This document shows, in pieces, positions 11,186 to 24,814 of a DNA stretch of 38,822 bases (position 1 is the first letter of the stretch; the number at the start of each line of letters is the position of its first letter). The translations under genes were made by a program, and so were the position numbers. The notes below the pieces were generated by a model. The model made no database searches. It saw only the letters and a list, made by a program, of their open reading frames with translations, and had not been told where the DNA came from. The DNA is from Chloroflexota bacterium (GTDB lineage: Bacteria > Chloroflexota > Dehalococcoidia > UBA2979). The stretch is from positions 1 to 38,822 of the forward strand of contig VXTU01000141.1 of the NCBI GenBank assembly GCA_009837285.1, read 5' to 3'.

Positions 11186-12147
11186 CGACGACGCGCACCG
11201 ACGTCGACTACGGCGGCGAAGCGACTGGGACGCCAGCCGGCGCATGGACGCAGCTCTGGCAACGGCTGCGCCGCAAGAAGCTGGCGATGATCGGCCTCGT
11301 CATCATCGTCATCATCTACACGTTCGGCATCGGCGCGAACTGGCTCGCCCCCTACAGCTTCACCGAGCAGGACCTGCTCCGCGGCCTCGAAGGACCGACG
11401 TCCGACCACTGGCTCGGCACCGACCGGCTCGGCCGCGACATGCTGAGCCGCGCGATCTACTCGGCGCGCACGACGGTGATCATCACCGCGCTCGTGATCG
11501 TGACGGGCGGACTGATCATCGGGCCGACCCTCGGCCTCATCGCGGGCTACCGCGGGGGCCGCACCGACGGCGTGATCGGGCGCGTCGGCGACGTCTTCAT
11601 CTCGCTGCCCGGCCTGCCGATGCTGATCCTCATCAACGCCTCGCTCTCCCCGCGCGTGGTCGAGGCCACGAAGTGGCTCGAGGCGAACTCCTTCCTGAGC
11701 GGGCTCGTGGAGAACGGGGTGCCCTCGTACTTCACTGTATTCGGCGCGCTGTCGCTGTTCTTCTGGGTCGGGAGCATGCGCATCATCCGCGCGCAGGTGC
11801 TGCAGATCCGCGAGCGCGACTTCGTGACCGCGTCGGTGGCGATGGGAGCGACGACCTCGCACATCATCTACCGGCACCTGCTGCCCAACGTGTCGTTCCT
11901 GCTGATCCTCGGCGCCTCGACGGCCCTGGGCTCTGTCGCGGGGTCCGAGCTGCTCCTGACGTGGTTCGGTGTGGGTGTGCAGCCGCCGGTCCCGTCGTTC
12001 GGGGTGATGATCTTCGAGGCGGGGAGCGTGCGCACGTTCTCCGCGCACCCGCACCTGCTGATCGTGCCCTCGATGTTCGTGGTCGCGCTGCTGTACGCGT
12101 TCGCGCTGTTCGGCGACGCGCTCAACGACGCCGTACGGGGACGGTGA
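11182..12147 (+). CDS. ABC transporter permease, DppC/OppC type
   Basis: A 321-residue partner permease. It has the short cytoplasmic N-terminus and first helix of the DppC branch (RRKKLAMIGLVIIVIIYTFG), then HWLGTDRLGRDMLSR, the hallmark before the core helices. The EAA loop is RDFVTASVAMGATTSHIIYRHLLPN. The GTG overlaps the stop of the first permease. No ATPase gene (DppD/DppF type) follows, because trigger factor begins 140 bases later. The ATP-hydrolysing subunits must come from another locus or be shared between systems. Confidence 0.94.
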   Translation: MTTTRTDVDYGGEATGTPAGAWTQLWQRLRRKKLAMIGLVIIVIIYTFGIGANWLAPYSFTEQDLLRGLEGPTSDHWLGTDRLGRDMLSRAIYSARTTVIITALVIVTGGLIIGPTLGLIAGYRGGRTDGVIGRVGDVFISLPGLPMLILINASLSPRVVEATKWLEANSFLSGLVENGVPSYFTVFGALSLFFWVGSMRIIRAQVLQIRERDFVTASVAMGATTSHIIYRHLLPNVSFLLILGASTALGSVAGSELLLTWFGVGVQPPVPSFGVMIFEAGSVRTFSAHPHLLIVPSMFVVALLYAFALFGDALNDAVRGR

Positions 12148-12287
12148 GCCGCTGGCGACCAGGTGGCTGCGAGCGCCCCCGGTGAGACGGTGGCGCACAG
12201 GGCTCGCCGACCCATAATCTGACTACCGGGCGCACGGCCACCGGCCTCGCCCGACGAACCGGTCCACCGCACTCCGAGGCGAGGTCC
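12148..12287 (+). promoter_or_regulatory. Intergenic region upstream of tig
   Basis: 140 bases without a gene. CATAAT at 12213-12218 is a good -10 candidate, with a start expected near 12225. No clear -35 matches at 16-18 bases upstream. I see no strong hairpin terminating the transport operon. Confidence 0.4.
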
Positions 12288-13817
12288 ATGCCAGTCACCG
12301 CTGAACGGCTCCCACGCTCCCTCGTGTCCATGGAGATCGAGGTCGAGGACGAGCGCCTGGAGGGTGCGCTGGACCGGGCCGTCCGCAAGGTCTCGCAGCA
12401 GGTGCGCATCCCGGGCTTCCGCCCGGGCAAGGCCCCGCGCCACATCGTGGAGAACATGGTCGGCCGCCCCGCGCTGCTACAGGAGGCGATCGAGGACTTG
12501 CTGCCGGGCCTCTACAGCGAGGCGCTGGAGGAGCAGGAGATCGACGCCGTCGGCGAGCCCGAGATCGACCTCAAGTCGACTGAACCGCTCGTCGTCACCG
12601 CCATGGTGCCCGTCCGACCCACCGTCGACATCGGCGACTACCAGTCGCTGCGCGTCCCGCGCGACGAGGTGACGGTCACCGACGATGACACCGAGGAGGC
12701 GATGGTCAGCGTGCGACGCCGCTACGCGATGCTCGAGCCCGTCGACCGCGCGGTCGAGTGGGAGGACACGGTCCGCGTCGACGTCTCCGTGACGGTCGAA
12801 GGACAGGGCGAGCCGCACGTCGAGGAGGGCGCGGAGTTCCGCGTCTCCGAGGACGGTCTCGTCTCACTGCCCGGCTTCCTCGACCACCTCGTCGGGCTGG
12901 AGCGCGGCGGACCGCACGAGTTCGCGTTCGACCTGCCGGAGGACTACCCGGCGGATGAGCTCGCCGGCAAGACCGCGAGCTACACCGTCACCCTCCACGA
13001 GGTGAAGCAGGAGGTCCTCCCGGACCTCGACGACGACTTCGCCCGCTCGCTGGACGAGGAAGGCATCGAGAACCTCGAGCAACTCCAGGAACGCATCGCC
13101 GAAAATGTACGCGTCCGGATCGAGGCCGAGAACGAGGCCGCGTACCGCGACGAGGTGATCGACCTGCTCCTCGCCACCGCCGACCTCGACTACCCCGAGG
13201 TGTTGGTGGAGCGTGAGATCGACCGCCTCGTGGACGAGCAGTCCAACCACGCCTTCCACGAGCGTGAGACGTTCGACCAGTGGCTCGAGGCCATCGGCCA
13301 GACGGAGGACGAGGTGCGCGACGCCCTGCGCGAGCAGGCGGACCTGGTCCTGCGCCGCGGCCTCGTCGTCGGTGAGCTCGCCGACCGCGAGAGCATCGAG
13401 CCGATGGAGCAGGACGTCCAGGCCGAGATCGACGAGCTCGTCGAGTCCATGAGCGGCGGCAGCACGGACCTCGAGGAGCGCGCGACGCTGCGCGGGCTGC
13501 TCGACACCGAGGAGACACGCGGCCAGATCACGACGCGCCTGCTCACGACGCAGACGCTGGAGCGGCTGGTCGAGATCGCCTCGCAGCCGGACGAGATCGA
13601 GCCTCGATCACCGCGCCGCCGCAGCCGGCGCCGGCGCGGCGCGCGCGGGGGCGACGCCGACGAGGCGACGGCCGAGGCCGAGGACGCGACCGCCGATGAT
13701 GCAGTCGCCGAGGACGACGCCGAGGCCACGGCCGGGGACCCCGGGGATGCGCCCGGCGGCGATGCAGCCGATAGTGGATCTAGTGAAGACGACGACCGGG
13801 ACGGCGACGACGCGTAG
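12288..13817 (+). CDS. tig: Trigger factor with charged C-terminal tail
   Basis: Trigger factor is the ribosome-bound chaperone that meets nascent chains at the exit tunnel. The ribosome-binding signature GFRPGK is at residues 43-48, followed by the FKBP-like PPIase domain (about 150-245) and the long helical chaperone domain (about 250-430). The 509-residue protein exceeds the usual 430-450. The extra part is a short Arg-rich patch ([16 protein letters not shown]) followed by about 55 residues dominated by Asp, Glu and Ala. The ATG has GAGGCGAGG about 4 bases upstream. clpP and clpX follow in the same direction, a common arrangement. Confidence 0.96.
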   Translation: MPVTAERLPRSLVSMEIEVEDERLEGALDRAVRKVSQQVRIPGFRPGKAPRHIVENMVGRPALLQEAIEDLLPGLYSEALEEQEIDAVGEPEIDLKSTEPLVVTAMVPVRPTVDIGDYQSLRVPRDEVTVTDDDTEEAMVSVRRRYAMLEPVDRAVEWEDTVRVDVSVTVEGQGEPHVEEGAEFRVSEDGLVSLPGFLDHLVGLERGGPHEFAFDLPEDYPADELAGKTASYTVTLHEVKQEVLPDLDDDFARSLDEEGIENLEQLQERIAENVRVRIEAENEAAYRDEVIDLLLATADLDYPEVLVEREIDRLVDEQSNHAFHERETFDQWLEAIGQTEDEVRDALREQADLVLRRGLVVGELADRESIEPMEQDVQAEIDELVESMSGGSTDLEERATLRGLLDTEETRGQITTRLLTTQTLERLVEIASQPDEIEPRSPRRRSRRRRGARGGDADEATAEAEDATADDAVAEDDAEATAGDPGDAPGGDAADSGSSEDDDRDGDDA

Positions 13818-13871
13818 CCGCCCCGTGCAGGAACAATCGACAGGCACCGCCTGGCACGGAAGGACACCGCC

Positions 13872-14513
13872 TTGACGGTCTCGCCCATGAACGTCGTGCC
13901 GATGGTCGTGGAGACCACCGCGCGCGGCGAGCGCGCCTACGACATCTACTCGCTGCTCCTCAAGGAGCGCATCATCTTCCTCGGGACGCCGATCGACGAT
14001 CACATCGCCAACATGATCGTCGCCCAGCTGCTCTACCTGGAGCGCGAGGATCCCGACCGCGACATCAACATGTACATCCACTCGCCGGGCGGCGTGATCA
14101 CCGCCGGCCTCGCGATCTACGACACGATGAACCTGATCCGCTCCGACGTGTCGACCATCGCCGTCGGCGCGACAGCCTCGATGGCGACGGTGCTGCTCTC
14201 GGCCGGCGAGAAGGGCAAGCGCTACGCGCTGCCGAACGCCACCGTGCACATGCACCAGGCCATGGGCGGCGCGCGCGGTCAGGCCTCGGACATCGAGATC
14301 GCGGCGCGCGAGATCCTGCGCAACAACGAGATCATCCGTAATATCTTGTCCGAGCGGACGGGGCAGGACATCGATCGGATCCGCATGGACACCGACCGCG
14401 ACTTCTACCTCAACGCCGACCAGGCGTTGGAGTACGGGATGATCGACGAGATCCTGCAGAAGCCCGACGACGGCAGCTCCACTGCGAGCAGCAACGGGAG
14501 CGGCATCGGCTAG
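13872..14513 (+). CDS. clpP: ATP-dependent Clp protease proteolytic subunit ClpP
   Basis: ClpP forms the tetradecameric serine-protease chamber fed by ClpX. The catalytic serine is S103 in GATASMA, the histidine H128 in HMHQ, and the aspartate lies in RMDTDRD (about 173), so the triad is complete. Family segments [18 protein letters not shown] and GKRYALPNA are clear. The usual HQP after the catalytic histidine reads HQA. I prefer the TTG at 13872 as start because GGAAGG lies 8 bases before it. An in-frame ATG at 13887 lacks a well-placed Shine-Dalgarno and would shorten the processed N-terminus by 5 residues. clpX starts 32 bases downstream. Confidence 0.96.
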
Positions 14514-14545
14514 CGTCGCGACCCGGCGGGGGCGCTGGGGGAAGC

Positions 14546-15832
<1,287 letters not shown>

Positions 15833-15858
15833 CCTCCGGCCGCTGCGCGAGGGGCCGT

Positions 15859-17943
15859 CTACTCCGCGGTCAGCGTCGCGCGATACGCCTCGAACTGCTC
15901 GTAGAACTCCTCGATGGTGAGACCGAAGGCGCCCTCGAACGCCTCGTCGCGGCTCGTGGCGTCCGGGAGTCGGCGATAGTAGTCGAAGATGGCGGGGTCG
16001 CCCGCGTGGTCGGCCAGCCACTCGACGGCGAGGAAGCCGAGGGCCTTCGTGGGCCACTGGCCCACGGCTCGGGCGCCATCCGGGTTTGAGACGTCCAGCA
16101 GTGTGACCGAGTTGAAGACCGCAGCAGTCACCGCGAGCTCACGGAACTCGTCGGCCACCAGAATCCCGGCGTGTTCGCCGTACTCGGTCTCGGCGTATGC
16201 CATGGCTCCGTCGTCGAACCAATCCGGAGCTCTGCCAGAGACGCTGCCCGTCGCGGGAATCGGCTGTTTGTGAGCGAGCTCACGTACGATCCCCCAAACG
16301 TAGACGTAGTCGAGCGGGAGCGCCTCACCGCAGTACTGCACCGCGATCACAACGACGCCGTACAGCGGCGCGCGCTTGCAGCTGCGAGAGTCATGCCAGC
16401 CCGGAACGGCGGCAAGAGCGGCCGCGGCGTCGGGCGCGACGTAGAGCGTGAACTCTGTGGCCTCAGCCTCGAAGCGATCGGTGAAGAACCGGCGCACGCC
16501 AGCGAACTGAGTAGTGATCGCGGCGGCCCGATCGTCTGAGACTCCCTCGAGCACCACAAGCACCGGATCGCTCCCCGCATCCGTGAGGTGCGGGAACGGC
16601 GGGAAGGCTTCGGCTCGGTAGGCAGCGAAGTGCTCATAGAAGTCAGCAGCGCTGATCCCGAAGGCTGCTTCGAATGCACGGCGCCAGTCGGCCGTCTCGC
16701 TATTAAGCCGGAAGAATTCGAAGAGGGCTAGGTCGCCGGCGCGATCGGTGAGTCGCTCCACAGCGAGGAATCCAAGGCCCCACGTCACGTTCGCGTTCGT
16801 CCCGCGATTCTCTCCGGGTCCAAAAGCCTTCAGCGGCAGCGCGGTCCGCCTTGCCCAGATCAGCTGCTCTCCGCGATATCTGCTGTGCGAATAGCCCGGG
16901 CTCTCTGACGCCTCCCGGTACGCACCGAGCGCGTAAGTCTGTGCCCCATCCACCAGCCACTTGGGGCCTCGGTCGTGATGCGTTCTGCCGGGGATCTCGA
17001 ATAGGAGCGCACGGATGTACTCCAGGGCCCGCGAGGAAAGGCCGCAACGCAGGACATGGATGCTGGCAGACGCAAGGTCCGTCCGCCCGCAGAAGCGCTC
17101 ATCGAAGACTCGAGGGCCAAACACCGCTCGGTAGATCGACGCAACATCGCTCACATCGGCGCCGATGTATTGATGCGGCCCTCTGGCGGCGGCCCCGAAG
17201 CGTAGCGCGAAGAACTCCCTGAGGCGTTCGTACTCGGCCACCAGGTCCGCCTGACTGTCGCTGGGGACGTCGCCGAGGAAGGTGAGTGGGGGTGCCGCGT
17301 TACCGGGCTGCCACCAGCCGACTGATCTCGATACTTCGATGAAGATGGCGTCACCTTGATTGAGGGTTGGTGAGGTTGCGGTCGCGCGCAGCGTTGGTCC
17401 GCGGAGGCGATACCGCTGCGCCGACGCATCCCAACTCCATGCGCGCAAGAGGGAATCACCGATGCGGGCCAGGGCGTCCGCGATTGGCGTGCCGTCGTTG
17501 CCCGACCAGGCCACCAGGCTCCGCCCTGGATGCAACGCGACCATGACATCCTCGTCCGACACATCCCGTGTCCAATCGAAGGTCGAGTCCCCGCCGAGCC
17601 GCAGCCACAGCCCCGCCCCTGTCGTGAGCCTCGACAGCTGTTGGTGGCTGCCGCGCCGAGCGTGCCAGTACGCCTGCTCCTCCGCGTCCCACGCGGAGAC
17701 TTGGCGCAGCGCCGGAATTGCGTCGAACAGCTCCGAGGTCGGCGTGTCTGGACCGACCCACCCGACGAGGTTCCAGCCGGGGTAGAGCACCGTCGTGATC
17801 GTGTGGTCGTCGTATGTCCCGCCTGCGCCGGTCGTGGCGCTGGCGTGTTCCGGCGTGGCGCCCGCACCGAGCGCAAGCAGTACGAGTGTTGCGAGGAGCG
17901 CACGCCGGACGTGATGAAGCATCAGCCGACGTGACATCGTCAT
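15859..17943 (-). CDS. Secreted protein with two PGWNLVGW-type modules and two degenerate peptidase-MA-like modules (copy A)
   Basis: A 694-residue protein with a signal peptide (about 1-36, cleavage after HASA). Two modules of about 85 residues follow, each starting PGxxLVxW (PGWNLVGW near 54, PGRSLVAW near 140). Then come two modules of about 230 residues with the outline of Peptidase MA gluzincins: an RxFFxxRF-like helix, a YVAPDA-like strand, a Cys pair (C-x14/15-C), a W-rich slot (PKWLVDGAQTYA, PDWFDDGAMAYAE) and a closing FGxxxxxFYExFxAYRA helix. No HExxH is present. The nearest remnant is RELAH in module 2, so catalysis is doubtful. It is translated after copy B through an ATGA overlap. 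Role unknown; a surface binding or scaffold protein is possible. Confidence 0.72.
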   Translation of the reverse strand: MTMSRRLMLHHVRRALLATLVLLALGAGATPEHASATTGAGGTYDDHTITTVLYPGWNLVGWVGPDTPTSELFDAIPALRQVSAWDAEEQAYWHARRGSHQQLSRLTTGAGLWLRLGGDSTFDWTRDVSDEDVMVALHPGRSLVAWSGNDGTPIADALARIGDSLLRAWSWDASAQRYRLRGPTLRATATSPTLNQGDAIFIEVSRSVGWWQPGNAAPPLTFLGDVPSDSQADLVAEYERLREFFALRFGAAARGPHQYIGADVSDVASIYRAVFGPRVFDERFCGRTDLASASIHVLRCGLSSRALEYIRALLFEIPGRTHHDRGPKWLVDGAQTYALGAYREASESPGYSHSRYRGEQLIWARRTALPLKAFGPGENRGTNANVTWGLGFLAVERLTDRAGDLALFEFFRLNSETADWRRAFEAAFGISAADFYEHFAAYRAEAFPPFPHLTDAGSDPVLVVLEGVSDDRAAAITTQFAGVRRFFTDRFEAEATEFTLYVAPDAAAALAAVPGWHDSRSCKRAPLYGVVVIAVQYCGEALPLDYVYVWGIVRELAHKQPIPATGSVSGRAPDWFDDGAMAYAETEYGEHAGILVADEFRELAVTAAVFNSVTLLDVSNPDGARAVGQWPTKALGFLAVEWLADHAGDPAIFDYYRRLPDATSRDEAFEGAFGLTIEEFYEQFEAYRATLTAE
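15875..16044 (-). repeat. Direct repeat, 3' end of copy A (matches 17956-18125)
   Basis: About 170 bases at the 3' end of copy A match the same part of copy B at an offset of 2081 bases, without gaps and with scattered mismatches. It encodes the closing FYEQFEAYRAT segment and the LGFLAVEWLA helix. Confidence 0.75.
17681..17803 (-). repeat. Direct repeat, 5' end of copy A (matches 19750-19872)
   Basis: About 122 bases encoding the first PGWNLVGW module are strongly similar to the same region of copy B. The stretch between the two conserved ends is far more diverged. Confidence 0.7.
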
Positions 17944-19997
17944 GGCGCTCCCAGGGTGGCGCGGTACGCCTCGAACTGCTCGTAGAACTTCTCGAGCGTG
18001 AGGCCGAAGGCGCCCTCGAACGCTTCACCACGGCTCGTGGCTTCCGGGAGGCGGCGGTAGTAGTCGAAGATCGCGGGGTCACCGGCGTGGTTGGCCAGCC
18101 ACTCGACAGCAAGGAAGCCCAGCGCACCTCCGGGGAACGCAATCGAGTCGAAGATAGTCGCCGTCTCCAGGGGATCGGGGGATCGTCCTGCGGCCGAGAC
18201 TGCCCGGTCCCGGTAATCGATGTACGACGTTTGGTCGGTGTCGTCTGCGTACACGGCGCGTACGTACAATTGCGATCCCACGTTGAACCATCGGGGAACC
18301 GAGGTGACGTGGTGGATGGAGAGTTCATCTCGAACGCCGAGGTAGTACATGTAGTCGAAGCCTCCCGGGGCGTCGGTGCACAGATCCAGAGGGAGGTCCA
18401 CGACGCCCCAGGACGGAGCCAACCAACAATCTGTCGGCACGTACGGCCTGACCAGTTCGGTCTGAATGCTCTCGGCGTTGGGTGCGACGAACATCGTGAA
18501 TTCGGTCGTCGCCTCAAAGCGGCTGGCGAAGAACCGGCGGACCGCTTCGAATTCCTCGCGGATAGCTTCGCCATCTTGCTTCGGCACGCCGTCAAGCATG
18601 ACGAGGACGGGTTCTTCGAGATCGTCGACAAGGTGAGGGAGCGGCGGGAAGGCCTCAGCGCGATAGGCCTCGAAGGAGGCATAGAAGTCTTCAACCGCCA
18701 TGCCGAAGACGGTTGCGAACGTGCCCCGCCAGTCGGCTGTCTGGCGAAGCTGCCGCAAGTACTCGAATAACGCGGGTTCCCCGGCGATCCCGAGCAGGTG
18801 CTCGATCGCGAAGAACGCGACTCTCCTCTCTTCGGGCGACAGAGGTATGATCACGCCAGACGTCTCCACGGTCTCAAGCTCGCTCAACGCTACGGTGACG
18901 CGCCGTCCGTCCACGAGAGCGTTCGCTCGCCACCGTCTGTCCAACGGTTCGCTGGCCTCGGCATAGGCGGTCTCGGCGTAGAGCCCGGCGGCTCCCACGA
19001 GCCAGTGCGGCATTGGCACGGCGGGCAAGCTGCCGAGCCAGCGCCATGCGCTGGGGAGATGGAAGCGAAGATTCTCCGCGAACTCGGGTACCAGCGAGAA
19101 CTCCGGCCCGAACACATCTCTGCCCGACGACGTATTCGGGTACGTACACGCGAGGACGCGCTTACTCACGCGACTACTGATACTCGTGTGGCAGTAGGTA
19201 CCCATGCTGCTGAAGGCGAAGTCGAGTTCAGGGACGTAGACATTCCGGAGCAGTTCGACGTTAGGTGCGATGTACTGGAGCGGACCCGGTGTGACAATGC
19301 CGAACCGCTCGACGAAGAAGTCCTTTACGCGCTCGTACTGACCCAGGATCGCGGCGCGCGTGTCCGCTGGAACGTCTCCGAGGAAGACGACCGCGTGGTC
19401 GCTCGTGCCTGTCTGCCACCAGTTGACCGCAGCGCCCACCTCAAGCCAGAGAGCGTCGCCACGACCGAGTTCGGCGTCCCCGAATCGATATGCCGCGAAC
19501 CGCTGGGCCTTTGAATTCCACCGATAGGCCGCCGTGGCCACCCGGCTCACGGAGGTGACCCCGCCATCAGCGGCGATCGCAACCAGGTTGATTCCCGGAT
19601 GGAGACGTACTGCGAAGGCGTCCGGCCCCACGTTTCGGCTCCACTCGACCGTCGAGCCGCCGCCGATCCGGAGCCAGATCCCCATACCGCGTGAGAGGGA
19701 CGACAGCTCGTCGTACTTGTCTCGCCGCGCATGGAGGTAGGCCTGTGCCTCGGCGTCCCACGCCGAAACCTGTCGCAGCGCCGGGATCGCGTCGAAGAGA
19801 TCCGAGGTCGGCGCCTCAGGGCCGACCCAGCCAACGAGGTTCCAACCGGGATAGAGCACCGTGGTGATCGTCTCGCGCCCGTGCCCTTCATCCGCGCCGG
19901 ACGATGCGACTGCGGCGCGGGGAGACACCCCCACACCCGAGGCGAGGAGTGCTACGAGCAGGGCGAGCAGCACTCCTCGACGACTATGTATGGGCAA
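17940..19997 (-). CDS. Secreted protein with two PGWNLVGW-type modules and two degenerate peptidase-MA-like modules (copy B)
   Basis: A 685-residue paralogue of copy A with the same order: signal peptide (about 1-32), PGWNLVGW and PGINLVAI modules, then two modules with C-x14/15-C pairs and W slots (PHWLVGAAGLYAE, PRWFNVGSQLYVR). The HExxH position reads VRDELSIHH in the second module and has no trace in the first, so copy B is further from an active gluzincin than copy A. The start is TTG at 19995-19997, with AAGGAG 7 bases before it. A nearby ATG upstream is out of frame. It is the first gene of the pair and divergent from tlyA. Both copies look somewhat less GC-rich than neighbouring core genes. 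Confidence 0.72.
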   Translation of the reverse strand: MPIHSRRGVLLALLVALLASGVGVSPRAAVASSGADEGHGRETITTVLYPGWNLVGWVGPEAPTSDLFDAIPALRQVSAWDAEAQAYLHARRDKYDELSSLSRGMGIWLRIGGGSTVEWSRNVGPDAFAVRLHPGINLVAIAADGGVTSVSRVATAAYRWNSKAQRFAAYRFGDAELGRGDALWLEVGAAVNWWQTGTSDHAVVFLGDVPADTRAAILGQYERVKDFFVERFGIVTPGPLQYIAPNVELLRNVYVPELDFAFSSMGTYCHTSISSRVSKRVLACTYPNTSSGRDVFGPEFSLVPEFAENLRFHLPSAWRWLGSLPAVPMPHWLVGAAGLYAETAYAEASEPLDRRWRANALVDGRRVTVALSELETVETSGVIIPLSPEERRVAFFAIEHLLGIAGEPALFEYLRQLRQTADWRGTFATVFGMAVEDFYASFEAYRAEAFPPLPHLVDDLEEPVLVMLDGVPKQDGEAIREEFEAVRRFFASRFEATTEFTMFVAPNAESIQTELVRPYVPTDCWLAPSWGVVDLPLDLCTDAPGGFDYMYYLGVRDELSIHHVTSVPRWFNVGSQLYVRAVYADDTDQTSYIDYRDRAVSAAGRSPDPLETATIFDSIAFPGGALGFLAVEWLANHAGDPAIFDYYRRLPEATSRGEAFEGAFGLTLEKFYEQFEAYRATLGAP
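17956..18125 (-). repeat. Direct repeat, 3' end of copy B (matches 15875-16044)
   Basis: Partner of the repeat at the 3' end of copy A, aligned without gaps. The near identity here contrasts with the diverged middle of the two genes. Confidence 0.75.
19750..19872 (-). repeat. Direct repeat, 5' end of copy B (matches 17681-17803)
   Basis: Partner of the repeat at the 5' end of copy A, encoding the first PGWNLVGW module. Confidence 0.7.
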
Positions 19998-20115
19998 CGT
20001 GCTGCTCCTTCATGCAAAGACAGCAATCGGGTTCACAGGATGATACGCACCTCAGCCGTGAATAGTTCCACCTGCACGGAGAGCGCGGTCGGAAGCGGCT
20101 GGGACGGTTGCGCGC

Positions 20116-20121
20116 TATCCT
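20116..20121 (+). promoter_or_regulatory. Candidate -10 box (TATCCT) upstream of tlyA
   Basis: TATCCT ends 9 bases before the tlyA ATG and no Shine-Dalgarno lies between, so a leaderless or nearly leaderless transcript is likely. The same hexamer precedes the GNAT gene. No -35 was recognised. Confidence 0.4.
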
Positions 20122-20130
20122 CGAATCCAG

Positions 20131-20895
20131 ATGACCATCACCCCCGCCCGACGCACGCGCGCTCGCCCGCGTCTTGACGTAACACTCGTCGAGCGCGGCC
20201 TCGCGCCGTCTCGCGAGCGTGCGCGAGCGCTCGTGCTCGCACGCGACGTGCGTGTCGACGGCGAAGTGGCCACGCGGCCCGCGCAGCCGGTGACGGCGGA
20301 CGCAGCCATCGAGGTGCGCGAGCCGCCGCCGTACGTGAGCCGGGGCGGCGAGAAGCTCGCGCACGCCCTCGACAGCACCAGGCTCGACGTGCGCGGCCTA
20401 CGCTGCCTCGACGTCGGCGCGTCGACCGGGGGGTTCACCGACTGCCTGCTCCAGCGCGGAGCGCGTGAGGTCGTGGCCGTCGACGTCGGCTATGGGCAGC
20501 TGGCGCAGCAGCTCCGCGACGACCCGCGCGTCGAGGTGCGCGAGCGCACGAACGCCCGCACCCTTGAGCCGCTCGACCCGTTGGCCGACCTCGCGGTCGT
20601 CGACGTGTCGTTCATCTCGCTCACGCTCGTGCTCCCGGCCGTGCTCGACTCGCTGCGACCGGGCGCCGACGTACTGGCGCTGGTGAAGCCGCAGTTCGAG
20701 GCGGAGCGCGCCGACGTGCAGCGCGGTGGCGTGGTGCACGACGCCGAGGTGCATGCCCGCGTCGTTGGGCGTGTGGCGTTGTGGGCCATCGAGCGAGGCG
20801 TGCGGGTGCGCGGGGTCGTGCGGTCACCGCTGCGGGGCCCCGCGGGGAACCGTGAGTTCTTCGTGTGGCTGCGGGCGCCGGAGGGCTCCTCGTGA
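20131..20895 (+). CDS. tlyA: TlyA-family rRNA 2'-O-methyltransferase (S4 plus FtsJ domains)
   Basis: A 254-residue protein with an N-terminal S4 RNA-binding domain (about 14-70; LDVTLVERGLAPSRERARAL), then an FtsJ/RrmJ-type SAM-binding domain. The linker RGGEKLAHAL and the SAM motif LDVGASTGGFTDCLLQ are diagnostic; VDVSFISL and LVKPQFEA follow. Family members methylate ribose 2'-OH groups of ribosomal RNA, the basis of capreomycin sensitivity in mycobacteria, and some are annotated as hemolysins. The ATG lacks a Shine-Dalgarno. The stop overlaps the nadK GTG by four bases. In many bacteria recN follows nadK, but it is absent here. Confidence 0.93.
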   Translation: MTITPARRTRARPRLDVTLVERGLAPSRERARALVLARDVRVDGEVATRPAQPVTADAAIEVREPPPYVSRGGEKLAHALDSTRLDVRGLRCLDVGASTGGFTDCLLQRGAREVVAVDVGYGQLAQQLRDDPRVEVRERTNARTLEPLDPLADLAVVDVSFISLTLVLPAVLDSLRPGADVLALVKPQFEAERADVQRGGVVHDAEVHARVVGRVALWAIERGVRVRGVVRSPLRGPAGNREFFVWLRAPEGSS

Positions 20896-21803
20896 CCGCC
20901 GGGAACGGCGTGGGCGCGATCGAGCGGTGCGGGGTGTGCTACCACCCCGACGTGGCCGGCGCGGCCGAGCTTGCGAAGCGGCTGTGCGACCAGGCCGCCG
21001 AGACCGGCTGCGACGTGTGGATGGCCGCGCTCGAGCGCGACGGCGCCGCGCCGCCCGACGACGGCCCCGTCGCCACCCAGCTTCCCGGCACCGACCTGCT
21101 CGTGTGCGTCGGCGGAGACGGCACCGTGCTGCAGGCGTCCGGCCTGGCCGCCGAGCACGGCATCCCCGTCTTCGGCGTGCGCATGGGTCGCCTCGGCTTC
21201 CTCGCCGAGGCCACCGAGGGCGAGGCCGAGGCCGCCCTCGCGCTCATCCTGCTGGGCCAGGGACGCATCGAGGAGCGCGCGATGGCGCAGGCCTCGGTCA
21301 TCGACGAACACGGCGAGGGCGAGGCGATGCACGCCCTCAACGACGTCGTCATCGGCCGCAACCGGCTCGGCCGTACGGTGACGGTGGGGCTGAGCGTCGA
21401 CGGCGTGCTCCTGGCCGAGTACCGCGCGGATGCCGTCGTGGTCGCCACCGCGACGGGCTCGACGGGGTACACGCTCGCGATCAGCGGGCCGATCCTGTAC
21501 CCGACGTCGAGCGAGCTCATCGTCGGCGCGGTCGCGCCGCACCTGTCGTACGGCAACGCGCTCGTCGTGCGCGGCGAGACGGATGTGCGGCTGCAGATGG
21601 CGCGCGGCTACGAGGCGCTGATGACGGTGGACGGTCACCACGAGCACCCCGTGCCGTCGGGCACGGTCGTGCGCGTCACGCGCTCACCGCGTGTCGCGCG
21701 GTTCATCCGGCTGGGCGGGGAGCAGCAGTTCTACGCCAACCTCGCGCTGCGCATGGGCTGGCTCCGCATCGACCACCAGCTCACCACCGACGACACCGAG
21801 TAG
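20892..21803 (+). CDS. nadK: NAD kinase
   Basis: NAD kinase phosphorylates NAD to NADP in the cytoplasm. The 303-residue protein has the GGDGT motif at 74-78, the NDVVIGR segment, and ATGSTGYTLAISGPI, which forms the substrate site. Length is typical. I use the GTG at 20892 because it overlaps the tlyA stop (GTGA) and has GGAGGG about 6 bases upstream. A slightly longer reading frame exists but begins inside tlyA. It is coupled to tlyA and ends 54 bases before the GNAT gene. Confidence 0.95.
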   Translation: MTAGNGVGAIERCGVCYHPDVAGAAELAKRLCDQAAETGCDVWMAALERDGAAPPDDGPVATQLPGTDLLVCVGGDGTVLQASGLAAEHGIPVFGVRMGRLGFLAEATEGEAEAALALILLGQGRIEERAMAQASVIDEHGEGEAMHALNDVVIGRNRLGRTVTVGLSVDGVLLAEYRADAVVVATATGSTGYTLAISGPILYPTSSELIVGAVAPHLSYGNALVVRGETDVRLQMARGYEALMTVDGHHEHPVPSGTVVRVTRSPRVARFIRLGGEQQFYANLALRMGWLRIDHQLTTDDTE

Positions 21804-21845
21804 CGCCCATCGCGCCGGGGTGATGCCTGTCGAGCGCGGTGGTTC

Positions 21846-21851
21846 TATCCT
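21846..21851 (+). promoter_or_regulatory. Candidate -10 box (TATCCT) for leaderless GNAT gene
   Basis: TATCCT ends 6 bases before the ATG at 21858, a spacing that places transcription start at the ATG. There is no ribosome-binding site in the interval. Confidence 0.42.
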
Positions 21852-21857
21852 GTGTGT

Positions 21858-22394
21858 ATGGCTGTGGAGATCGAGTACCCCTCGCCGCTGACCGAAGGCG
21901 TGGTCGTGGACCGCGCGCGGGTGGGTGATGTCGATGGCATCACGGACCTCGTGAACTTCTGGGCGGCGCGCGGCGACATGTTGCCGCGCACCAAGGGCGA
22001 GACGTACGAGAACCTGCGCGACTTCTTCGTGATCCGCGAAGGCGGCGAGGTCGTTGCGTGTGGCGCGCTGCACATCGTGTGGGCGGACATCGCCGAGCTT
22101 AAGTCGCTCGCTGTCTCCGAGGACTGCCAGGGGCGTGGGTACGGCCAGCACCTCGTGCGCGCGTGCGTCGAGGAGGCGAGCCGGATGGGCCTCGACCGCG
22201 TCTTCGCGCTGACCTACAAGCCGGAGTTCTTCGAGCGGTTCGGCTTCATCCAGGCGGACGTGATGGCGCTGCCGCGCAAGGTGTGGAACGAGTGCTACCG
22301 CTGCCCGAAGTTCCCTGGCTGCAACGAGATCGCGATCACGCTCGACCTCACCGGCCGCACGGCCGAGCCCGTGGCCGCCGCAGCCGCGCTGTGA
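21858..22394 (+). CDS. GNAT N-acetyltransferase, short N-acetylglutamate-synthase-like
   Basis: A 178-residue GNAT protein. The acetyl-CoA loop is EDCQGRGYGQHLV. The N-terminus (VVVDRARVGDVDGITDLVNF), the GDMLPRTKGETYENLRDFFV segment and the closing ERFGF...KVWNECYRCPKFPGCNE motif with its three Cys match stand-alone acetyltransferases often annotated as N-acetylglutamate synthase (COG1246), the first step of arginine synthesis. No other arginine gene is nearby, so the substrate is uncertain and I give no symbol. The ATG at 21858 is chosen over the GTG two codons earlier because of the -10 box spacing. The stop overlaps the Nudix gene start (GTGA). Confidence 0.85.
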   Translation: MAVEIEYPSPLTEGVVVDRARVGDVDGITDLVNFWAARGDMLPRTKGETYENLRDFFVIREGGEVVACGALHIVWADIAELKSLAVSEDCQGRGYGQHLVRACVEEASRMGLDRVFALTYKPEFFERFGFIQADVMALPRKVWNECYRCPKFPGCNEIAITLDLTGRTAEPVAAAAAL

Positions 22395-22945
22395 CGTCCG
22401 AGGCCGAGCTCCCCGAAGTCCTCAGCTCTGAACGCGTCTACGAAGGCCACGTCTTCGACATTGACCACGACGCGATCCGCTTCCCCGATGGCGTCGAGGC
22501 GATGCGCGCGACCGTGCGGCACCCCGGCGCGGTCGCCCTCGTCGTCATCAACGGCGACGGGCGCTGGCTGCTCGTCGAGCAGTACCGCCACCCGGCGGGC
22601 AGGCGGCTGCTCGAGATCCCGGCGGGCACGCGCGAGCCGGGCGAGGCGCCCGACGTGACCGCGCACCGCGAGCTGCGCGAGGAGACGGGCTACGACGCGG
22701 ACTCGCTCGTGCGCATCGGCGGGGCGTGGATGGCGCCCGGGTTCACCTCGGAGTACATCGACTTCTACCTCGCGACGGGCCTGCGCGAGTCGCCGCTCTC
22801 GACCGGCGACGAGGAGGACCTGTCGGCCCCGATCCCGTACACGCGCGAGGCGATTGAGGCCGCCGTCGCAGCGGGCGAGATCGAGGACGCGAAGACCCTC
22901 GTGGCGCTGCAGTTGTACGCGCTCAGTGAGCGGATGCAGGGGTGA
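22391..22945 (+). CDS. Nudix hydrolase, ADP-ribose pyrophosphatase type
   Basis: A 184-residue Nudix protein. The Nudix box is complete: GTREPGE, seven residues, then RELREETGY (G-x5-E-x7-RE-x2-EE-x-G). The upstream strand WLLVEQYRHPAGRRLLEIPAG and the GFTSEYIDFYLATGL segment are typical of ADP-ribose pyrophosphatases (NudF/YffH group), which split ADP-ribose into AMP and ribose 5-phosphate. The GTG at 22391 overlaps the GNAT stop, so the two are coupled. With nadK just upstream, two nicotinamide-nucleotide-related enzymes lie close together, although they belong to separate transcription units. Confidence 0.9.
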   Translation: MTSEAELPEVLSSERVYEGHVFDIDHDAIRFPDGVEAMRATVRHPGAVALVVINGDGRWLLVEQYRHPAGRRLLEIPAGTREPGEAPDVTAHRELREETGYDADSLVRIGGAWMAPGFTSEYIDFYLATGLRESPLSTGDEEDLSAPIPYTREAIEAAVAAGEIEDAKTLVALQLYALSERMQG

Positions 22946-22968
22946 GTCGCTCGTCGCACCGTGTGCGC

Positions 22969-22997
22969 TTGACCATGACCGCACCCCCGGCAATAGT
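22969..22997 (+). promoter_or_regulatory. Promoter of the frdABCD operon
   Basis: TTGACC (22969-22974), a 17-base spacer and AATAGT (22992-22997) make the best -35/-10 pair in the window. Transcription would start near 23004, giving a leader of about 50 bases ahead of frdA. Confidence 0.6.
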
Positions 22998-23053
22998 CAG
23001 CGTCGCCACGGGCCGCGAGGCGCCCGGGCGGAGTGCGGCGTAAAGGGGCAGCC

Positions 23054-24814
23054 GTGGCAGACGACCTGCAACACGACATCCTCATCGTCGGCGGCGGCGG
23101 CGCGGGTCTCCGCGCCGTGATCGCGGCCGCCGAGGCGCACCCCGACCTCGACATCGCGATGGTCTCCAAGGTCTACCCGATGCGCAGCCACACGGTCTCC
23201 GCCGAGGGCGGCGCTGCGGCTGTGATCAAGGACAACGACAGCCTGGACGAGCACATCCACGACACCATCAGCGGCGCCGACTGGCTCGCCGACCAGGACG
23301 CCGTCGAGCTGTTCGTGAACGAGGCCCCTCGCGAGATGATCCAGCTCGAGCACTGGGGCTGCCCGTGGAGCCGCGAGGAGGATGGCAGCGTCGCCGTCCG
23401 GCCCTTCGGCGGGATGCGTATCCGCCGCACGTGGTACGCGGCCGACAAGACCGGGTTCCACATGCTCCACGCGCTGTTCCAGACCTCGCTCAAGTACACC
23501 GCCGTCAAGCGCTACGACGAGTGGTTCGCGACGCGCCTGCTCGTCGAGGACGGGCGCTGCCAGGGCGTCATCGCGATCGAGATGCGGACCGGCGAGGTCC
23601 ACGCGATCCGGGCCCGCTCGGTGATCATGTGCACCGGCGGCGGGGGCCGCGTGTTCCCGTTTACCACCAACGCCGCGATCAAGACCGGCGATGGCATGGC
23701 GATGGCCTACCGCGCCGGCGTCGCGCTCAAGGACATGGAGTTCGTCCAGTACCACCCCACCGGCCTGCCCGGCACCGGCATCCTCATCACCGAGGCGGCC
23801 CGCGGCGAGGGCGGCATCCTGGTCAACACCGAAGGCCGGCGCTACCTTGAGGACTACAACCTCGGTGAGCCGGTCCCCATCGACGACCCGCGCCACCCGC
23901 AGCTTCGCACGATGGAGCTGGGCCCGCGCGACAAGCTGTCGCAGGCGTTCATGAAGGAGCAGGACGCCGGCCGCGTCTACTCGGGCGAGTACGGCACGTA
24001 CACCCACCTCGACGTGCGGCACCTCGGCGAACAGCTGATCATGGAGCGCATCCCGTTCGTGCGGGAGCTGGCGAAGAACTACGCCGGCATCGACCCGGTC
24101 CACGAGCCGATCCCGGTGCGCCCCGTCGTCCACTACATGATGGGCGGCATCCACACCAACACGAACGGCGAGACGAGCCTGCCGGGGCTGTTTGCCGCCG
24201 GCGAGTGCGCCTGCGTCAGCATCAACGGCGCGAACCGCCTCGGCTCCAACTCGCTGACCGAGTTGCTTGTGTTCGGCCGTCGCGCCGGGCTCTCCGCCGC
24301 CGAGTTCGCGCGCGAGCACCCCGACCTCGACGCCGATGCGCTCGAAGCGCAGCGCGCCGACGAGGAGGCCTCGATCGCCGCGCGCTTCCGCACGCCGCGC
24401 GACGGCGGCGAGCGCCTCGCCACCATCCGCCGCGAGCTCAACTCGACGATGGAGGAGGGCGCGGGCGTCTATCGCGAGGAGTCCGGCATCCGGGCCACCA
24501 CCGAGAAGGTCGCCGAGCTCAAGGAGCGCTACGAGAACGTCGCCATCGACGACCACAGCAAGAGCTTCAACACCGAGCTCACCACCGCGATCGAGCTCGG
24601 CTTCCTCCTCGACGTCGGCGAGGCGGTCGCGCACTCGGCGCTCGAGCGCACCGAGTCGCGCGGCTCGCACCAGCGCACGGACTACCCGGACCGCGACGAC
24701 GACGGGTTCCTGAAGCACTCGCTCGCGTTCCGCACGGACGGCGCGCCGCGCATCGAGTACGCCGGCGTGACGATCACCAACTGGCCGCCGGCCGAGCGGA
24801 CGTACGGGAACTAG
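23054..24814 (+). CDS. frdA: Fumarate reductase / succinate dehydrogenase flavoprotein subunit
   Basis: The 586-residue FAD subunit interconverts succinate and fumarate. It has the dinucleotide fold [10 protein letters not shown], the His that binds FAD covalently (H46 in [11 protein letters not shown]), and the active-site stretches [23 protein letters not shown] (in part) and [15 protein letters not shown]. The segments [31 protein letters not shown] and [14 protein letters not shown] are, from memory, very close to E. coli FrdA rather than SdhA. Direction in the cell is not fixed by sequence. With FumC and MDH nearby it may run as succinate dehydrogenase. The GTG at 23054 has AAAGGGG about 5 bases upstream. 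It heads frdABCD. Confidence 0.95.

Follow-up and report, generated by a model that had tools for sequence, protein, structure and literature searches.

The window, by which we mean the whole 38,822-nucleotide stretch of Chloroflexota DNA that was analysed, encodes two tandem paralogues, A and B, that by their sequences are pseudopeptidases: the catalytic residues of a zinc metallopeptidase have been lost from their large modules, and the scaffold that carried these residues is still under selection. An earlier note, made from the letters of the window, had described two tandem paralogues here, each with two PGW modules and a pair of larger ones behind a signal peptide. The open reading frames are real, and both genes fit this description, with the same order in A and B: a hydrophobic N-terminal signal peptide, as judged from the sequence, then two PGW modules of ∼85 residues and two gluzincin-like modules of ∼240 residues (Table 1). 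The stop codon of B overlaps the ATG of A as ATGA, so the two proteins are probably co-translated. No RNA family was found at the A/B locus.

Table 1. Features of the A/B locus, with positions given in the window.
Feature	Position	Strand	Details
clpX	14546-15832	plus	flanks the A/B pair; name is a reading of the translation
gene A	15859-17943	minus	694 aa; ATG start; signal peptide
A module 2, dead gluzincin-like	15862-16587	minus	HExxH slot YVYVW 16294-16308 (residues 546-550); Glu slot WFDDG 16207-16221
A module 1, dead gluzincin-like	16591-17313	minus	HExxH slot LEYIR 17011-17025; Glu slot WLVDG 16945-16959
A tandem PGW modules, approximate limits	17293-17802	minus	PGWNLVGW 17758-17781; PGRSLVAW 17506-17529
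gene B	17940-19997	minus	685 aa; TTG start, AAGGAG upstream; signal peptide
B module 2, dead gluzincin-like	17943-18632	minus	HExxH slot YMYYL 18339-18353; Glu slot WFNVG 18276-18290
shared tract in gene B	18100-19380	minus	96% identity with a gene from a congeneric species (L055/G002); probable recombination tract
B module 1, dead gluzincin-like	18636-19418	minus	HExxH slot PEFAE 19074-19088; Glu slot WLVGA 18990-19004
B tandem PGW modules, approximate limits	19386-19871	minus	PGWNLVGW 19827-19850; PGINLVAI 19575-19598
tlyA-like gene	20131-20895	plus	flanks the A/B pair on the other side; name is a reading of the translation

An active gluzincin requires the HExxH zinc motif and a Glu as third zinc ligand, and both are missing from all four large modules of the window. 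The four modules are mutually homologous (A1 versus A2, E ∼1e-19; A2 versus B2, E ∼1e-53). Alignment places LEYIR, YVYVW, PEFAE and YMYYL in the HExxH slots of A1, A2, B1 and B2, which agrees with the absence of the motif reported earlier, and the third-ligand Glu is replaced by Asp in A1 and A2, by Gly in B1 and by Val in B2. The pentapeptide RELAH (A residues 554-558; 16270-16284), previously put forward as the best HExxH remnant, is rejected by alignment with active modules: it sits eight residues downstream of the true slot of A2 and aligns with the "DELA" of active HEYFHVLQDELA. Two recurring features that the note had pointed out, a C-x14/15-C pair (C285/C300 and C522/C538 in A; C269/C284 and C524/C540 in B) and a closing FYExFxAYRA motif, were located in each of the four modules.

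Modelling and profile comparisons place the large modules in the gluzincin / Peptidase MA superfamily by homology. The AlphaFold2 model of A (658 residues, pLDDT 89.3, pTM 0.87), when searched against PDB structures, matched M1, M61 and M9 collagenase entries with E-values of 3.5e-6 to 1e-3, as expected from the gluzincin fold proposed in the earlier note; the best match was to M1 aminopeptidases (3.5e-6), followed by clostridial and Vibrio-type M9 collagenases and one M61 aminopeptidase. We note that the TM scores are low (about 0.2-0.35) and the rmsd high because a multi-domain query was aligned whole, and the fold argument rests on E-values and probabilities. In the model, the HExxH and WLxEG slots fall on two successive helices, in the manner of gluzincins. 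A profile of dead modules aligns with one of active modules over 236 columns (E = 5e-51), and a profile of 22 active modules matches an M1 zinc metallopeptidase (E = 0.0017); the dead-module profile gave no significant match in the PDB. No unrelated characterised family appeared in profile searches, where the main Pfam signal was Peptidase_MA_2 together with other gluzincins, and weak matches to VHP, flavodoxin and eCIS_core were also seen. In every module with a listed bit score, the Pfam gluzincin score is under the curated cut-off. PF13485 (Peptidase_MA_2; gathering cut-off 32.4 bits) gave 19.8 bits for A as a whole, 22.1 bits for A2 and no match in B, and PF01752 (M9 collagenase; cut-off 26 bits) gave at best a listed 18.9 bits, in an active relative, and no match in A or B. 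The family has its fold and its weak PF13485 and M9 matches in common with the gluzincins M1, M61, M9 and Peptidase_MA_2, and its active paralogues likewise carry HEYFH and WLxEG on successive helices. Unlike known gluzincins, the paralogues also possess a PGW tandem and a conserved pair of Cys residues, and the window modules lack the zinc ligands and score below the listed Pfam cut-offs.

The two PGW modules claimed for each protein are present in both A and B and are modelled with a repeated topology. The PGW module has no Pfam model, and its fold matched no PDB structure at E ≤ 0.001, so that any role assigned to it is a guess. At the same threshold, the sole structural match to the PGW tandem was A0A8D9C8P8, a 587-aa "putative hemin binding protein" of an uncultured marine phage (E 3.1e-5, TMq 0.59, 11% identity), in which the reference to hemin is annotation only. 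A phmmer match of A residues 100-139 (window 17527-17646) to designed beta-trefoil proteins (E 3e-7) is taken as chance because a 47-row profile of the PGW family matches nothing in the PDB.

An iterated profile built from the window modules recovered 55 full modules in related genomes. The survey for an active HExxH relative that the earlier note had recommended was successful: HEYFH-bearing modules were found, some of them in the same genome, which encodes a 966-aa protein with the pattern active-dead-dead. A second collection holds 86 modules; the 42 with H, E and H in the slot positions are called active here, and the remaining 44 dead. In the active class, the Glu, Gly and Ala of EGxA are invariant beside the HExxH residues used to select the modules; in the dead class, the ligand columns have variability percentiles of 82 to 98. 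Jointly, the six catalytic columns of the dead modules exceed random sets (p = 0.00015 against all columns, p = 0.005 against neighbouring columns), values that are optimistic because three of the six columns serve to define "dead" and because the sequences, being related, do not count as independent. The mean column entropy of the whole module is equal in the two classes (2.38 and 2.42 bits), and the columns freed from constraint in dead modules are almost exactly the catalytic ones. The Cys pair is present in 39/44 dead modules versus 17/42 active ones. Nei-Gojobori counts gave dN/dS values of 0.23-0.57 in eight pairs of dead modules and 0.26-0.42 in four pairs of active modules, with 0.34 for one active/dead pair and 0.21 for the PGW region of B. 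The dead modules are under purifying selection and the genes are not decaying. A further protein of the window's own genome, L038 (G000:C72), carries HEMAH and a C-terminal hydrophobic stretch and is probably a distant, membrane-anchored, active relative.

Catalysis was lost several times, since the module tree needs at least eight changes between the active and dead states, six of which are forced by well-supported branches. A single clade next to active modules, supported at only 84/97, holds most of the dead class (36 modules). The first modules of L058 (active) and L073 (dead, YEYFL) are sisters with support of 100/99, and both genes have neighbouring sequence that matches the window on its tlyA side. 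Among the 27 multi-module proteins, 14 are active-dead, three dead-active, two active-dead-dead and eight all dead; 19 of them contain a single active module, eight lack one, and two active modules never occur together. Elsewhere in its genome, the 1503-aa protein L057 has the order PGW-dead-dead-PGW-dead-dead and looks as if an A/B gene pair had fused.

Taken with the evidence above, these architectures suggested to us that A and B may be secreted pseudopeptidases that use a dead protease scaffold for binding outside the cell, a proposal to which we give an even chance. A gluzincin module would have been duplicated downstream of two PGW modules in a secreted protein. One copy would have lost catalysis early, with every copy dead in this lineage, and the scaffold would have been kept under selection after the loss. 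A and B would be exported through the signal peptide, the PGW modules could serve as an anchor or glycan binder, and the dead modules, stabilised by disulfides, would act independently as binders of an extracellular peptide or protein; where the host is a sponge, mesohyl proteins and debris are candidate ligands. With the earlier note, we infer repurposing for binding or structure. The closest functional precedent is carboxypeptidase D, whose inactive third domain binds ligand and may present substrate (PMC11266112). That protein (M14) also has tandem peptidase domains, one of them inactive, in a single secretory-pathway chain (PMC11266112), but it belongs to another fold family and is eukaryotic and membrane-anchored, whereas A and B are without any active domain.

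The main rival, to which we allow a modest chance, is a non-catalytic role for A and B, as subunits or regulators that form dimers with the HEYFH proteins of the same genome or present substrate to them. Active and dead modules share a chain in 19 of the 27 multi-module proteins, and dead modules therefore probably first served an active neighbour; the 966-aa active-dead-dead protein is a possible partner of this kind in the same genome. However, neither A nor B itself contains an active module, and none was seen in the adjoining genes of the window.

Variation between clpX and tlyA bears on a second alternative. By its flanks, L073 is the nearest relative of the window (92.4% identity over 12000-16035 and 89.6% over 19636-24000), and its single gene at the locus matches A and B at 72-79%, only at the ends and in the PGW region. 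L055 has two genes at the locus, the second of which carries the tract that matches gene B (1.28 kb; G002:C38:5893-7173), with flanking genes only 76-80% identical. Compared with L055, gene B has a dS of 0.98 in its 5' PGW part but only 0.09 in module B1, and no such tract at this identity was present in the other family genomes examined. The simplest reading is that the segment is probably a recombination tract between species; assembly collapse is unlikely as its source because the tract is not identical and its substitutions are scattered throughout. Such differences between the alleles of close species, and a tract common to two of them, would also suit a structural surface coat that diversifies under phage or host recognition and for which the protease scaffold is merely a convenient stable fold, and the family is multi-copy and, by its signal peptides, secreted. 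We consider such a coat unlikely, as dN/dS is well under 1 in all regions tested and no S-layer or anchor motif was identified in A or B. Slightly less likely still is that clpX-tlyA is a recombining variable-protein locus of sponge symbionts, at which the dead scaffold serves as a diversifying binding domain, the ex-catalytic positions form its variable ligand site and different species trade alleles.

It is very improbable that the modules retain a changed catalysis based on another metal site or another chemistry. A1 and B1 do keep the Glu of the HExxH slot, and A1 and A2 have Asp as third ligand, but no dead module has both histidines together with the third Glu, no conserved replacement residue occurs at the ligand columns, and a Tyr at column 184 of the active modules is lost as well. 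That A and B are recent pseudogenes in decay would account for the missing catalytic residues but is scarcely credible given intact overlapping frames, the low dN/dS of the dead modules and the age of these modules, which form clades common to different genera.

The best-studied pseudopeptidases are eukaryotic. Few bacterial examples are discussed in PMC11266112. The present family is retained in many secreted copies by a bacterial lineage that apparently consists of sponge symbionts; some copies pair active and dead modules in one chain and others are fully dead. This natural series of active/dead pairs offers a direct way to study the purpose of a dead protease module. No collagenases were reported in a survey of about 1200 reef-sponge MAGs (PMC8163846); with scores under the Pfam cut-offs, the predicted-active, weakly M9-like paralogues could be missed by annotation of that kind. 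The papers searched described no secreted gluzincin family from sponge Chloroflexota.

Of 393 genomes from the class to which the window belongs, 95 carry the PGW tandem, and PGW modules also turn up in a few other phyla (L091, L094 and L096 are examples of PGW carriers). A single-sequence scan of genome contigs gave no match, and the family loci were found by an alignment-based scan. Named loci with both PGW and gluzincin modules come from the bins SB066x/SB0675, APA, IRC, COS, RHO, jk18x and p16x. One jk18x bin appears by name in work on Ircinia sponges from the Caribbean (PMC9531527); APA, IRC, COS and RHO fit, by abbreviation only, sponge genera of PMC8163846, and the SB and p16x bin names were not found in the papers searched. 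The distribution is suggestive of restriction to sponges, and is to be read as such because the scan patterns were derived from close relatives. Two family members, L053 and L054 (G030:C58 and G030:C157), are split by in-frame stops or frame breaks, through either sequencing error or decay. Three contigs labelled Gammaproteobacteria or Gemmatimonadetes (L058, L064 and L075) carry this Chloroflexota module family and are probably misbinned; L058 also matches the tlyA side of the window at 83%.
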